From a virus, in IMG/VR virus record IMGVR_UViG_3300024348_000227, positions 1-25,013 of that record: a stretch of DNA of 25,013 nt; one strand, 5' to 3'. The notes beneath the pieces were generated by a model. It saw nothing but the letters and a program-made list of their open reading frames with translations, was not told the origin of the DNA and did no database searches. Every line of letters begins with the position of its first letter. Position 1 is the stretch's first letter. Shown here piece after piece: positions 9,422 to 14,694 of this stretch. Both the position numbers and the translations under genes were made by a program.

Positions 9422-9705
9422 TATATTTCTACTTTCTCATCAAGGGTTGAATCCCATGATGCTATTTGTTTGGCGTCTTTCAACACCCACTTACATGCAC
9501 TAGCCTTATTGCTAAAGCCATACGCATGTTCGTACTCTCTACAATCCTGCCCACCATTACGGTAAGCATCCTCGTAGCGGATGACGAACCACTTGCCACC
9601 ATCACCCATGCAAACATAATATATGCATTGAATGTCGGGCATGTTAATTTTATATTCACTCATTTTACTGTTTACCTTAAACTCGCTTATCTCGTAGTTA
9701 CTCAT
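9421..9705 (-). CDS. Hypothetical protein
   Basis: 94 residues from the ATG at 9705, chosen because it makes an ATGA overlap with the stop of the DUF7192-like gene; an in-frame start at 9744 would lie inside that gene. Product MSNYEISEFKVNSKMSEYKI... with a strand-rich middle (Q-C-I-Y-Y-V-C-M-G-D-G-G-K-W-F-V-I-R-Y) and Y-G-F-S-N-K-A-S-A-C-K-W-V. This fold pattern (a short beta sheet followed by A-x-x-W) is seen in small phage proteins of unknown function. Confidence 0.6.
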   Translation of the reverse strand: MSNYEISEFKVNSKMSEYKINMPDIQCIYYVCMGDGGKWFVIRYEDAYRNGGQDCREYEHAYGFSNKASACKWVLKDAKQIASWDSTLDEKVEI

Positions 9706-10556
9706 TCTGCCAGCCCTAATCCCTGTACGGTTGTCAACACCCAAGCGAACGGGTCACGGACAATGTCGCCGTTACCATTCTGTAGTTTCTCAACCATCAC
9801 ATCATAATCCCGAATTTTTGTGTACTCAAGATTATGTGGTGTGCCATAACCACTATAGGATTCTGCACCCTGCGCCTTGGCTGTCGTTGACTGCTCCTGA
9901 ACACTGAATGTCAATCGCCTAAGCATTGACGGGTGAGCCATGCTGAACATGACGCTGTCAATGTCTAGGTGGTCGTTGCTGTCATGCAATTTGACCACGG
10001 TGGAGTATGTCTTGTCACGGGCACCACGACCAGTGACGCATGATTCCCACCACAACTCAACACCCACACCCATTTTGTGGATAGTTTCAAGCAGCGCAAC
10101 CACAGCAACACCACGGGCTATAATGTGAGCAGAACTAATGTCGCTAGACGCTGTGCCAGCAACCATAATCTTTACAACACGACCCATCGTTGCTGATGAT
10201 TCTGGCAGGAACTCAAGCATGCACTCGGGTTCACCAGTGACGAAACGCCCCATGTCAACCGATGAGCCACTTACGGCGTACTCGGTCACATAATGTTCGC
10301 TGAACTTCATGTCTAGGCGTTCTGTCACCTTGCTAAGGATGCTGTCAACATCGCTACGGATAGCGCCATAACCATTACGGGCAATGTCACACGCCTCGGA
10401 CAGTGTTGCTGATTCCTGCCACGACACGCCATTCTCATAGCGTTCCGCACTGTTGGCGGATTGTGGTGCCTCATTGGCAATGGCGTACTTAGCGAACTCG
10501 CCAAGTGAGCCGAACACCTCGTAATGGTGTTTCGGGTTGTCGGTTATAATTTGCAT
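9702..10556 (-). CDS. DUF7192-like protein, likely partner of the CobS-like ATPase
   Basis: 284 residues. Contains V-D-M-G-R-F-V-T-G-E-P-E-C-M-L-E-F (~99-115) and I-I-A-R-G-V-A-V-V-A-L-L-E-T-I-H-K-M-G-V-G-V-E-L (~143-166), features I associate with the phage DUF7192 family, which is often encoded next to MoxR/CobS-type ATPases. MoxR/CobS ATPases usually work with a von Willebrand A-type partner (CobT in cobalt chelatase). The region around 143-166 could be a Rossmann-like core, but the classical D-x-S-x-S metal site is not obvious. AGGAG lies 6 nt before the ATG. The name rests on memory of the family and the position, so treat it as provisional. Confidence 0.65.
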   Translation of the reverse strand: MQIITDNPKHHYEVFGSLGEFAKYAIANEAPQSANSAERYENGVSWQESATLSEACDIARNGYGAIRSDVDSILSKVTERLDMKFSEHYVTEYAVSGSSVDMGRFVTGEPECMLEFLPESSATMGRVVKIMVAGTASSDISSAHIIARGVAVVALLETIHKMGVGVELWWESCVTGRGARDKTYSTVVKLHDSNDHLDIDSVMFSMAHPSMLRRLTFSVQEQSTTAKAQGAESYSGYGTPHNLEYTKIRDYDVMVEKLQNGNGDIVRDPFAWVLTTVQGLGLAE

Positions 10557-10582: not shown

Positions 10583-11890
10583 TTACAGTGACAAGCCCAT
10601 GAGAATTTTCTCACAAGCCTCAGGGGTTGCGCCCTTGGTGATGGTTGCCTCAACAACCTCGCCGAGATTATAGACACCGTCATGGCGTAGCATCTTAGCA
10701 CCGTACACCGTGGCACGGGGTGACACCACAACATGCAAACCATAGGTGGACACATTCTTACGGGCAACACGGACAATGTTGAGCCACTTGGCAGACATTG
10801 AAGCGTCAAGTCCTACGGCATCCAGCATTGCCTGTTCAATGTTCTCATCGTATGTGATGGTGAGGTTAGCGAAGCGGTTCAGGAACGCCTCATCCAACGG
10901 GTTACGACCCACATACTTAGCGTTAGCGCCATGACCGAAGGTGTTGGCGGTAGCGATGAGCACAAAGGCATCATGGCGCTTGACCATACCATCAGGGAAC
11001 GCCATGAACGAGTTACTCAAGGCACTGTTCAGGACTGTGAGAACATTCGGGTTGCCGTTGTCAACCTCATCCAGTAGGAACACGCCACCCAACTCAAACC
11101 GCTTACGGAATTCGGTGGTGACATAATCGCCAGTCGCCGACATATAACCAAGTAGCGATGACTCGGTGGATTGGCTACTGCATGACTTGGACGAGAACGC
11201 CACACCCAACGCTTGTGAGACTTGCTCTGCGATGTGTGACTTCCCTGTCCCTGCCTCACCTACAAGATAGGTTGGTGTACCGTCTGCAATGTTCGCCAAT
11301 ACCTTAGGGAACATGTGATGCTGAACGCCTTCCATAATCTTTATGTCACGATTCGGAATGTGGATATGGGTAATTTTCGGTTGAAGCCTTGCCACAGTCT
11401 CGGACAACTCACCTAGGGACACAGTCACATCGGCGAATGATGCAATGGCAGGAGCCATTGCCTCATTGACGATTGCGCCAATAGCCTCGGTATCGGGTTC
11501 AGGATTATAACCATCCAGAACTTCCGTCACGATGTCACGAAGCACCGCATCTATGCCAGTGGCAGGTGCCTTGGGTTGCTTGGGTGTGGATGGGATGGGT
11601 GTTGTAGCCACGATGGGTACTTCCTTTGGTGTTGGTGTTGGTGTTGGTGTTGGTGAGCCATAAAGTTTGGCACACTGAGAATTCCACGCTGTGCACAGTT
11701 GGTCAAGCGTCCACCGCATGGCAGGGTAGCCAGTGAACTTGAAACCGCTATAATTCAACGCTGCAATTTGCCCATTTTTGGATAGGAAACTGAAGCGGTC
11801 AGTCCGTTCACGGGTTGAGCCGTGTTCGTGGTAGGTGACACGCTGTGTGGCGTAGTCAATGGATGTGACGATTGGCATTTTGTTAGCCAT
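10583..11890 (-). CDS. CobS/MoxR-like AAA+ ATPase
   Basis: 435 residues. N-terminal ~75 residues form a small separate domain (F-S-F-L-S-K-N-G-Q...), then a Pro/Thr linker (S-P-T-P-T-P-T-P-T-P-K, 79-89), a helical segment, and an AAA+ core: Walker A G-E-A-G-T-G-K-S (211-218), G-G-V-F-L-L-D-E-V-D (268-277; D274, E275), sensor L-I-A-T-A-N-T (311-317) and F-L-N-R-F (arginine finger R339). The order matches the CobS/MoxR group, chaperone-like ATPases that remodel partner proteins or insert metals. The gene downstream is its probable partner. GGAGG lies 8 nt before the ATG, inside a hairpin (11893-11910). Confidence 0.85.
   Translation of the reverse strand: MANKMPIVTSIDYATQRVTYHEHGSTRERTDRFSFLSKNGQIAALNYSGFKFTGYPAMRWTLDQLCTAWNSQCAKLYGSPTPTPTPTPKEVPIVATTPIPSTPKQPKAPATGIDAVLRDIVTEVLDGYNPEPDTEAIGAIVNEAMAPAIASFADVTVSLGELSETVARLQPKITHIHIPNRDIKIMEGVQHHMFPKVLANIADGTPTYLVGEAGTGKSHIAEQVSQALGVAFSSKSCSSQSTESSLLGYMSATGDYVTTEFRKRFELGGVFLLDEVDNGNPNVLTVLNSALSNSFMAFPDGMVKRHDAFVLIATANTFGHGANAKYVGRNPLDEAFLNRFANLTITYDENIEQAMLDAVGLDASMSAKWLNIVRVARKNVSTYGLHVVVSPRATVYGAKMLRHDGVYNLGEVVEATITKGATPEACEKILMGLSL
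11632..11656. repeat. Short tandem repeat coding the Pro-Thr linker
   Basis: A GGTGTT unit (minus-strand AACACC) is repeated four to five times in a row. It encodes the alternating Pro-Thr linker of the AAA+ protein. Such a run can change length by slippage in 6-nt (two-residue) steps without a frameshift, so linker length may vary between relatives. Confidence 0.6.
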
Positions 11891-11952: not shown

Positions 11953-12282
11953 CTAGCGAGTGGACACCGTAGCGCCAGTGATGGTGTTCACATAGCGTGG
12001 GTTTTTCTTGTCACGCTTGAAGCGTACAACTGACTCATTTTGTGCCAGTAATTCGTTCATGCCATTTTGGTCACTGACCGAACCAAGCCCGACAGATACG
12101 ACACCCAAGTACCACGAATCATCGTAGGAACCATCGTACTCACACATGAGAGTCTCATAATGATATACACGGCGGACACGACCCATATCGTCAATGTCGT
12201 CAACGAACGACCACGACGATGCCTTGCCTGTACGACCTTTTTTGTGTGGTGTCACCGATGGTGACATATCTGTAATTTTCAT
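11953..12282 (-). CDS. Hypothetical protein, first gene of the minus-strand operon
   Basis: 109 residues from the ATG at 12282, chosen for the strong AAGGAG site 6 nt upstream; an in-frame ATG at 12303 has none. Product MKITDMSPSVTPHKKGRTGK..., strand-rich with aromatic clusters (Y-D-D-S-W-Y-L-G-V-V-S-V) and a basic C-terminus (RFKRDKKNPRYVNTITGATV). No domain recognised. It follows directly after the hairpin-rich non-coding region, so its mRNA probably carries the last hairpins (12307-12357) in its leader. Confidence 0.6.
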   Translation of the reverse strand: MKITDMSPSVTPHKKGRTGKASSWSFVDDIDDMGRVRRVYHYETLMCEYDGSYDDSWYLGVVSVGLGSVSDQNGMNELLAQNESVVRFKRDKKNPRYVNTITGATVSTR

Positions 12283-12841
12283 AATATTCTCCTTATGTTT
12301 CAATGCCCCTAGCGGAATTGCTAGGGTATTGGAACCACACCACGGAATTGCACCGTGACGAACTCGCTAGAGTGTGGACGGACATTATGGGTTCTACTGC
12401 CACACGCTATGGTGTGGTGAACCTGCGATGTCCTCGCAAGAATGGCACATGCCACGAGCCTTATCTTCACGACCCGTAGCACCCATTATGAGACACGGCA
12501 CTGGCACCCTTTGTGCCACCGTGTCCCTAATCACTTACGCCCTGCCATTATGACCATGAACCCGAACTACACTCTCGGGCTGTCATAACGATTGAACGCC
12601 AACCTCAGCACCTCAGCCATGACCATGAGCCATGCATCGCTGTACTAAGCGCCGTGGCAATGCATCATCCCGATAGCACTACAACACGGCACCACTAGGC
12701 ATCCTGTGACTAGTGGCGAACGACACCACGAAAGCAGTGCCGAACAACCAATACAGTAAGACCGCCGATTATGAATTCCAACAATCCATAACGAAACTAA
12801 CTAGCAAAACATCCGCAAACCCTTACGGCATATAGGAAAGA

Positions 12842-12858
12842 TTTTTTTTATTTTTTTT
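12842..12858. repeat. T8-A-T8 tract
   Basis: Two runs of eight T separated by one A on the plus strand, flanked by AGGAAAG and TTTCCT, which are complementary. On the minus strand it would be an unstructured A-rich linker splitting the hairpin-rich region in two. On the plus strand it could act as a terminator, but there is no strong GC stem before it. It could also be an easily melted origin element. Confidence 0.45.
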
Positions 12859-13095
12859 CGTTTCCTCGCCTACATGCGCCCCAACACGACGAGAATCGTC
12901 GCCCATAGCCACGCCATATCCTGCCCATAATGCACGCCATATCGCACATCAGAACTGCATACCCACACACCCACATCATGCCTCCATGCATGACGCATTA
13001 TGTGCACATTGCCCCCCATAATCTGCCTATAAAGTGCACCGCATGCACCATGCGAACGCCTATCGCTATTGACTAGTACAGACTAGCCTCGCATG

Positions 13096-13221
13096 AGGGG
13101 GGAGGCACGGGGGGGTGCGCCCCCACTTGCGTATAAGTAATATAGAACCAATTCCGAGGGCGTCTATTTTTGGGACTTGGGGTACCTACAGAGGGGGGGC
13201 ACCCTTGTTTCAATAGGGGGG
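13096..13221. other. G-tract cluster
   Basis: The plus strand carries several G runs of 6-7 within 126 bp (13097-13102, 13109-13115, 13193-13199, 13216-13221) plus shorter ones, striking against the moderate GC of the rest. One run pairs with CCCCC at 13120-13124 across a 4-nt loop (13111-13124). On the minus strand these are C runs. They may be part of the structured RNA, form G-quadruplexes, or mark a DNA processing site. Confidence 0.5.
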
Positions 13222-13254
13222 TGGATGGATGTCCATGCTACCTATATGGTGTAT

Positions 13255-13268
13255 GGGGTTGATACCCC
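13255..13268 (-). terminator. Hairpin just downstream of the tRNA
   Basis: GGGGT and ACCCC pair around a 4-nt loop, starting 7 nt after the CCA end of the tRNA on the minus strand. No U run follows, so it is more likely a 3' processing signal or the first stem of the structured RNA than a full intrinsic terminator. Confidence 0.35.
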
Positions 13269-13274
13269 TAGTGG

Positions 13275-13349
13275 TGGCTCTCCCCCTTGGGATTGAACCA
13301 AGACTTGACGGATTAACAGTCCGTTGCACTGCCGTTATGCTAGAGGAGA
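13275..13349 (-). tRNA. tRNA-Asn (anticodon GTT), CCA encoded
   Basis: A full cloverleaf can be drawn on the minus strand: acceptor TCTCCTC with GGGGAGA (one G-U), D stem GCAT with GTGC, anticodon stem ACGGA with TCCGT around loop CTGTTAA (anticodon GTT), 5-nt variable loop, T stem CTTGG with CCAAG around TTCAATC. The 72-nt body ends at 13278 with discriminator G, and CCA (13277-13275) is encoded. It lies 10 nt after the DUF6321-like gene on the same strand and is probably co-transcribed with it. It would read AAC and AAU; the capsid gene uses AAC heavily. Confidence 0.95.
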
Positions 13350-13359
13350 AAGACTGTCT

Positions 13360-13632
13360 TTAGCAGTCCCATTTACGCAAAGCGAGGGCTTTGCGGGTGG
13401 GGCGTCCTTTGGAATCTTTTAATGGTCCTTTGGATGCGCCCATTCTGGCGCAGAATGAGTCTCGGCGTGCTGCTGCTTTGGGGGATTTAGCTGCTTGTTT
13501 GGCTGACACGGGCGGCTTTAGTGTTCCACCTGTTTGTGCTTTGTAGGATGCCCGTCCTTTAGCATTTAAACCGCCTGCTGGGTTTTTGCCTTCGGCTCGG
13601 GTCCATGCAGGGGTTTTCTTTTTGGCTGCCAT
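13360..13632 (-). CDS. DUF6321-like basic phage protein
   Basis: 90 residues, very basic. Segments P-A-W-T-R-A-E-G-K-N-P-A-G-G-L-N-A-K-G, S-Y-K-A-Q-T-G-G-T-L-K-P-P-V, R-R-D-S-F-C-A-R-M and K-G-R-P-T-R-K-A-L-A-L-R-K-W match a small phage/virus family (DUF6321, from memory) that is almost invariant across unrelated phages. Its strong conservation and basic charge suggest binding of nucleic acid, but its job is not known. GGGAGAG lies just before the ATG. The stop is 10 nt from the tRNA. Confidence 0.8.
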   Translation of the reverse strand: MAAKKKTPAWTRAEGKNPAGGLNAKGRASYKAQTGGTLKPPVSAKQAAKSPKAAARRDSFCARMGASKGPLKDSKGRPTRKALALRKWDC

Positions 13633-14268: not shown

Positions 14269-14694
14269 ATGTCTGAAAATATTATTGACGAACGCCAAGA
14301 AAAATACTTAAACTGGTTGTTGGTACCCGCCCCCATGCGTGTACCATCCACAACAGAAGCCTACGCTAAAGAAAACGGCATGGACACCTCAACCCTGAGG
14401 CGCTGGATGAAAAAACCCGTATTTAAAAACGAATGGCAAAAACGAGTAGAAGAACTACAAGGTTCTCCAGAACGAACCCAAAAACTATTGGACTCCGTAT
14501 ATCAGCGTGCTCTGGGCGGGGACAACAAAGCAGCACAACTATACCTTCAGGCTACAAACCGTTTGGCTCCCACACAAGTAACTGTGAACCATACGCAGTC
14601 TCTGGCAGAAATCAGCGACAAGGACCTAGAAGATTTAATCTCTAGCATGGCTGTGACTGAGCAGACTGCCAGATTAGATGCGGGTCATGGTTGA
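14269..14694 (+). CDS. terS: Terminase small subunit (HTH type)
   Basis: 141 residues. N-terminal HTH: F/W-x-x-W-L region then R-V-P-S-T-T-E-A-Y-A-K-E-N-G-M-D-T-S-T-L-R-R-W (23-46), the homeodomain-like type seen in phage terminase small subunits. It is followed by a helical oligomerisation part (S-P-E-R-T-Q-K-L-L-D-S-V-Y-Q-R-A-L, N-K-A-A-Q-L-Y-L-Q-A-T-N-R-L) and an acidic C-terminus. Small terminases bind the packaging site and hand DNA to the large subunit. The large subunit gene is 4.4 kb further on, separated by the fibre cassette, which is unusual. No good ribosome-binding site lies at normal spacing from the ATG. Confidence 0.75.
   Translation: MSENIIDERQEKYLNWLLVPAPMRVPSTTEAYAKENGMDTSTLRRWMKKPVFKNEWQKRVEELQGSPERTQKLLDSVYQRALGGDNKAAQLYLQATNRLAPTQVTVNHTQSLAEISDKDLEDLISSMAVTEQTARLDAGHG

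Follow-up and report, generated by a model that had tools for sequence, protein, structure and literature searches.

A large structured phage RNA family with a tRNA-like 3' domain, located upstream of a CobS-like ATPase gene

The stretch of DNA analyzed here (the window; 25,013 bases from one virus record) carries on its minus strand, on which the RNA coordinates are given, a large structured RNA that ends in a tRNA-like domain. At the level of sequence comparison, we demonstrate for this RNA a conserved, covarying, and non-coding fold, a tRNA-like 3' domain, and a constant site upstream of a CobS-like gene. The element is almost certainly a functional non-coding RNA of the minus strand, and it is probably a new large stable phage RNA, set off by tRNA-Asn on its 5' side and by the tRNA-like domain on its 3' side, that acts as RNA. 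To our knowledge, very few RNAs of such size and complexity have been described beyond the ribosome, and we know of no function for the phage ones (GOLLD and ROOL).

Genetic Organization of the RNA Locus

The minus strand of the window contains genes from about position 14350 down to about position 1880, including replication genes for a DnaB-like helicase, an archaeo-eukaryotic primase, and a PD-(D/E)XK nuclease; the tail, terminase, and portal genes are located on the plus strand. The nearest named phage according to the terminase (50% identity) and the portal protein (41%) is an unclassified podovirus (Manatee Spring, MW202803.1), in which the RNA is absent. The features of the locus are compiled in Table 1. 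The tRNA-Asn most resembles its counterparts in Streptomyces phages (80–86%), which may hint at an actinobacterial host.

The initial annotation had described a gap of about 970 nt without any credible gene, and this was corroborated: no ORF of at least 60 aa exists in 12304–13359 on either strand, the longest sense ORF inside the window RNA has 53 aa, and ORF matches between groups of relatives are few and weak. The span originally assigned to the RNA (12304–13274) was largely right, except for its start, beyond which the last hairpin (12331–12301) slightly extends. Both the structure and the orientation of the operon point to transcription of the RNA from the minus strand. The CobS-like gene was found in the sense orientation, 1.0–2.8 kb downstream of the RNA, in the 30 loci (30/30) with enough sequence; some of these loci were recruited by that very gene, and the pattern-recruited loci L132, L138, L139, and L167 agree. 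The DUF6321 gene lies upstream of the RNA in 20 of 49 loci, and, with the patterns used, IMG/VR contained no relative of the 109-aa gene other than the gene itself. After the CobS-like ATPase comes a DUF7192 protein (phrog_1909; 9702–10556), which may be its partner.

Table 1. Features of the RNA locus in the window.
Feature	Positions	Strand	Evidence or details
DUF6321 gene, upstream of tRNA-Asn	13360..13632	-	PF19846, E 5e-27
tRNA-Asn (GTT), CCA encoded, abuts the RNA 5' side	13275..13349	-	ARAGORN; Rfam RF00005, 58.5 bits
Large structured non-coding RNA, about 970 nt	12301..13274	-	Fold z, nhmmer relatives, covariation, lack of ORFs; predicted ends: 5', right after the tRNA-Asn CCA; 3', last hairpin
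Conserved A/U-rich box (UAUAUUACUUAUACGC in the window, UAUAAGAAUCAUACAC in other groups)	13128..13147	-	Alignments
Conserved C-rich (C7) motif RCCCCCCCRUGCYCCCC	13100..13117	-	Alignment; derived pattern retrieved the family
Conserved motif GYGCAUUAUG	12926..12935	-	Alignment
Long hairpin 12599-12594/12542-12537, 12590-12582/12554-12546, 12581-12574/12566-12559	12537..12599	-	Window vs L004
Hairpin 12527-12518/12499-12490 (10 bp, 2 G-U) and 12517-12513/12507-12503 (5 bp)	12490..12527	-	
Hairpin 12481-12471/12460-12450	12450..12481	-	4 double compensatory changes, window vs L004
Compound hairpin 12433-12426/12387-12380, 12423-12419/12394-12390, 12414-12411/12405-12401	12380..12433	-	
tRNA-like 3' domain: closing helix CCACAC 12377-12372/GUGUGG 12340-12335 around the T-arm	12335..12377	-	
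T-arm CACGG-UGCAAUU-CCGUG, G-C closing pair invariant	12341..12357	-	27 loci, 17 distinct T-arm sequences
Terminal hairpin (CAAUACCCUAGC AAUUCC GCUAGGGGCAUUG), 3' of the tRNA-like domain	12301..12331	-	
109-aa gene, 3' of the RNA and outside it, before the CobS-like gene	11953..12282	-	No family match
CobS/MoxR-like AAA+ ATPase gene, constant downstream neighbor	10583..11890	-	phrog_249, E 1e-54; PF07728

Folding and Strand of the RNA

Folding of the minus-strand RNA gave an energy of −394 kcal/mol, compared with −353 ± 6.5 kcal/mol in dinucleotide shuffles (z −6.3), and that of the plus-strand RNA gave −312 kcal/mol (z −2.9), each z-score being calculated from just 20 shuffles. Strand-specific G-U pairing, already proposed from the window alone, was confirmed by the consensus helices of the relatives, in which G-U cells largely exceed C-A cells on the minus strand (300/54 in groups A+B, 254/28 in group C, 330/55 in group D, and 130/13 in group E); moreover, the complementary strand gave poorer consensus folds in 4/4 groups. 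The region 12200–13350 contains 26 pairs of inverted repeats, in agreement with the minimum of ten noticed before. Among the individual stems, the one reported at 12492–12525 is present and slightly longer (Table 1), with 15 bp in all and G-U pairs restricted to the minus strand. The stem at 12400–12417, which had been considered to point the other way, turned out to be no exception: its arms are palindromic in the window, and in L004 they read AUGGAC/GUUCAU, with G-U pairing on the minus strand only. A local stem at 12977–12992 was not clearly supported, the two-sequence consensus pairing 12985–12977 with 13109–13101 instead. Comparison of the window with L004 revealed seven double compensatory changes in the long hairpin 12537–12599, with zero unpaired cells, and another seven in the compound hairpin 12380–12433.

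Three motifs are conserved within the RNA. The A/U-rich box, located just upstream of the C7 motif, is a candidate linker or promoter element. CATTATG was present in 27/27 members (50 copies versus 4.4 in shuffles); considering the window RNA together with 27 full-length relatives, CATTATG and CATAATG were both enriched (50 and 21 copies, versus about 4 and 3 after shuffling). In group D, GCAUUAUGC is found in the core and again in the tRNA-like domain, at the tip of its long arm. In most members a hairpin comes after the T-domain; in the window this terminal hairpin is not followed by a U-run, and it is therefore not an intrinsic terminator.

Relatives of the RNA and Covariation Analysis

Relatives were obtained by scanning IMG/VR with the CobS-like protein, the DUF6321 protein, and a CobS alignment, and then with the RNA-derived DNA pattern GYRCCCCCCCATGCHCCCC, which retrieved 61 contigs. 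Besides the window, about 49 non-redundant RNAs (96% identity cut) were detected by nhmmer in IMG/VR, with less certainty for a few low-scoring ones (E near 1e-3). One contig was identical to the window, L004 showed 84–85% identity, and the others went down to about 37% in pairwise alignments. Relatives recruited by the neighboring genes and those recruited by the motif carry the RNA, of about 850–1000 nt, at the same place. Searches of other collections were negative: in GTDB bacterial genomes the C7 pattern gave 22 scattered, chance-like matches without extended similarity; the RNA was not found by DNA search in 50,697 phage records, where the window retrieved tRNA-Asn alone among the matches listed; and queries from groups C and D had no DNA match in isolated phages.

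The 5' side of the RNA is variable, with tRNA-Asn in the window and tRNA-Lys or no tRNA in some relatives; in one subgroup (L012–L014), a tRNA-Lys (TTT) takes the place of tRNA-Asn. In five relatives (L132, L159, L166, L173, and L196), strong intrinsic-terminator-like hairpins with U-runs were identified by eye about 90–170 nt upstream of the C7 motif. Their location suggests that the RNA starts its own transcript in those viruses and that it may have a promoter of its own.

A single sequence-only alignment of 47 cores showed no significant structure, and the analysis was consequently done within subgroups; MAFFT misregisters the long arm between them. Covariation was assessed in the manner of R-scape, by a G-test to which the average-product correction was applied, using null alignments in which the substitutions of each branch of a FastTree tree were replayed at random columns, and re-predicting the structure on every null. 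Group C (six sequences) had a fold energy of −359 versus −259 ± 8.7 in the nulls (z −11.4), 11 significant pairs versus a null mean of 0.04 (maximum 1), and 71 compensatory cells versus 28 (maximum 38). Group D (seven sequences), the alignment of which contains a small inserted gene, had a z of −11.9, seven significant pairs versus 0.17, and 211 compensatory cells versus 98 (maximum 126). Groups A+B, including the window (nine sequences), had six significant pairs versus 0.08 (maximum 1) and 151 compensatory cells versus 67 (maximum 83); their energy z was only −1.7 because the cross-group alignment is poor. Between the window and L004, none of 313 pairs was broken, and 21 double changes were found versus 9.2 (maximum 14) in column-shuffled alignments. 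An all-pairs covariation test on subgroups of three to nine sequences, too few for such a test, yielded nothing significant, the informative tests being the structure-restricted ones with refolded nulls. Compensatory changes thus exceeded the tree-preserving nulls in every subgroup tested in this way, and this comparative covariation supports the large structured minus-strand RNA beside tRNA-Asn that the initial annotation had put forward.

The tRNA-Like 3' Domain

The most distinctive part of the RNA is its tRNA-like 3' domain, which had not been noticed before. Its T-arm is the sole such element in the window, as verified on both strands. In 27 loci, a 5-bp hairpin, which has the loop UGCRAUU and is invariably closed by a G-C pair, is located 670–940 nt past the C7 motif, and group D has a second T-arm element at 1080–1240 nt. 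The 3' strand of the T-arm continues directly, or after one additional base, into the 3' strand of the closing helix, which is the geometry of the T-arm and acceptor in tRNAs. In 15 distinct sequences, 99.4% of the cells of the T-arm and closing helix were paired versus 69.3% in shuffled ones, for T-arms selected by a pattern needing 4/5 pairs and closing strands placed within ±2 nt for maximal pairing; double changes affected 10/11 pairs, the covariation score was 0.988 versus 0.320 after shuffling, and the signal was lost when the strands were slid by one base. Independent support comes from seven other members, in which the arm is perfectly paired and the loop is UUCRAUU, UUCGACU, UUCAAGU, or UCCGAUU, in most cases a canonical tRNA T-loop. 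The U55→G change (loop UGCRAUU) is a trait of the 27 loci, the window included, and the true T-loop UUCRAUU is found in divergent members. The domain displays the T-arm/acceptor module of tRNAs, in which a 5-bp T-stem with G53-C61 and a loop of 7 nt (UUCRANY) adjoins the 3' strand of the acceptor. Among 19 related loci sampled, every such T-arm found was in the sense orientation and lay just past the RNA.

Cloverleaf folds comprising an acceptor-like stem, a D-arm-like hairpin, a long arm, and the T-arm were obtained for group D, L137, L212, and L167. In these members the loop of the short D-arm-like hairpin is usually AGG(N)A, and an arm of 12–14 bp replaces the anticodon arm; the D-arm-like hairpin is limited to group D-type members. 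Features of a decoding tRNA are lacking, the long arm standing in place of a 5-bp anticodon arm and ARAGORN making no call at default settings. Its relaxed modes were discarded owing to too many false calls, only a D-armless call in L010 coinciding with the domain. An aminoacylatable CCA end was also rejected, the CCA past the T-domain of the window not being general in the family, as was ACCACAC (12418–12412) as the acceptor strand, which the comparison with L004 assigns to a hairpin of its own.

The domain resembles tmRNA in having a tRNA-like end with a T-arm, no or a reduced D-arm, and a long stem replacing the anticodon arm. It differs from tmRNA in that the 5' acceptor-like strand, placed in 22 loci, lies about 20–45 nt upstream of the T-arm and not at the 5' end of the RNA, and neither ARAGORN nor Rfam called a tmRNA. 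It also recalls tRNA punctuation, the tRNA-like element separating a structured RNA from a gene and being repeated past the next gene in some relatives, but here it is joined to a large conserved phage RNA, and processing is putative. Group D and L030 have a second tRNA-like element after the next small gene. Since a protein gene is thereby enclosed between two such elements, these may be a general punctuation mark for transcripts rather than a part of the RNA. In group D (L138, +844 to +1165 from the C7 motif; also L058, L164, L139, L034, and L118), a gene of 105–109 aa with a good ribosome-binding site is placed between the first (UUCAAUU) and second (UGCAAUU) elements, in what looks like a cargo slot; in L095, a different small gene occupies the slot. 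L113 has three successive T-arm elements (+578, +915, and +1195) with canonical UUCGAUU loops, which were not called by default ARAGORN.

Interpretation and Alternative Explanations

The explanation that we favor is as follows. The RNA would be transcribed from the minus strand, either within the early operon or, as apparently happens in some relatives, from a promoter of its own. It would be delimited by tRNA-type punctuation: on the 5' side by a tRNA-Asn, which some members replace by tRNA-Lys or lack, and on the 3' side by the tRNA-like domain, whose T-arm is coaxial on the acceptor-like helix and after which a capping hairpin comes. Enzymes of tRNA processing (RNase P, RNase Z/E) would recognize these elements and liberate a stable RNA. 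A T-arm/acceptor stack of 12 bp would fit RNase P substrates. On balance, we lean slightly towards release of a separate stable RNA through tRNA-type processing. Alternatively, the tRNA mimic would protect and dock the 3' end of the RNA. Once free, the RNA may work as such during infection, either in scaffolding or assembly, as in the case of GOLLD and ROOL, or by acting on the translation machinery.

The main rival explanation, which we regard as unlikely, is that no separate RNA exists and that the region acts in cis as a 5' untranslated leader of great length, controlling, by attenuation, antitermination, or other regulation, the small gene and the downstream operon with the CobS-like gene. 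Such a leader would fit the position of the RNA, always in sense and upstream of the CobS-like gene in the 30 loci, and the absence of a closing U-run terminator in the window, and terminator-like sequences that precede the RNA in several relatives would place it at the start of a transcript. However, about 900 nt of covarying structure far exceeds known leaders, the tRNA-like domain and the terminal hairpin resemble the end of an RNA, and no competing terminator/antiterminator pair was found.

A second alternative, similarly doubtful, is that the RNA forms an RNA-only cage or multimer, comparable in function to GOLLD and ROOL independently of sequence. GOLLD, encoded by phages and often near tRNA genes, is a large structured RNA of at least 800 nt with conserved and variable halves, and ROOL is a large structured phage or prophage RNA near tRNA islands that does not code for protein; both form RNA-only cages although their sequences are unrelated (PMC12286853). 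In setting and scale, this is the class that our RNA most resembles. Our RNA shares with GOLLD its size, structure, phage coding, and tRNA vicinity, with a tRNA located upstream in several relatives, not in all; it is distinguished from GOLLD by the lack of an Rfam match, a tRNA-like end with a T-arm, and the constant CobS-like downstream neighbor. It is likewise large, structured, phage-borne, non-coding, and near tRNA like ROOL, but it is larger, has no Rfam match, and ends in a tRNA-like 3' domain. A cage would agree with this multi-hairpin architecture, with the lack of an obvious protein partner, and with the conservation and recurrence of the palindrome-like GCAUUAUGC words; against it, similarity in Rfam is absent, and the recurrent words may just pair intramolecularly.

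That the RNA is instead a divergent member of GOLLD, ROOL, OLE, or HEARO is suggested by its phage origin, tRNA neighbor, and size, traits that resemble those of GOLLD and ROOL, but it is most improbable, being refuted at the sensitivity of the Rfam 15 models. With the 4227 families of Rfam 15 at gathering threshold, the window and 37 related loci from all subgroups matched no family but tRNA; none of those four models matched in the window or in the related loci; and at E ≤ 5 the region in the window gave, apart from tRNA, only two CRISPR-repeat matches, both below threshold and located at the terminal hairpin. The initial annotation had left the choice between one of the known families and a new one, and these comparisons support the latter, a new family of large phage RNAs ending in a tRNA mimic, of which we found no description in the open-access literature searched. 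A DNA-level structure (replication origin or packaging site) or decayed tRNA genes would account for a hairpin-rich region beside a tRNA, but can hardly be reconciled with G-U-rich, C-A-poor pairing on a single strand, compensatory changes in all groups tested, and a fixed orientation relative to the operon.

Significance

The large stable phage RNA proposed here adds to the known RNAs a family that Rfam 15 does not contain; it has about 49 relatives and covaries clearly, and its constant neighbor is a gene for a CobS-like AAA+ ATPase. More tentatively, it may represent a new class of giant phage RNAs in which a 3' tRNA mimic serves to make and protect a stable, possibly multimeric, RNA machine engaging host translation or the CobS-like ATPase. 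The tRNA-like 3' domain provides a functional handle, and short constructs can probe how such RNAs arise and what they bind.
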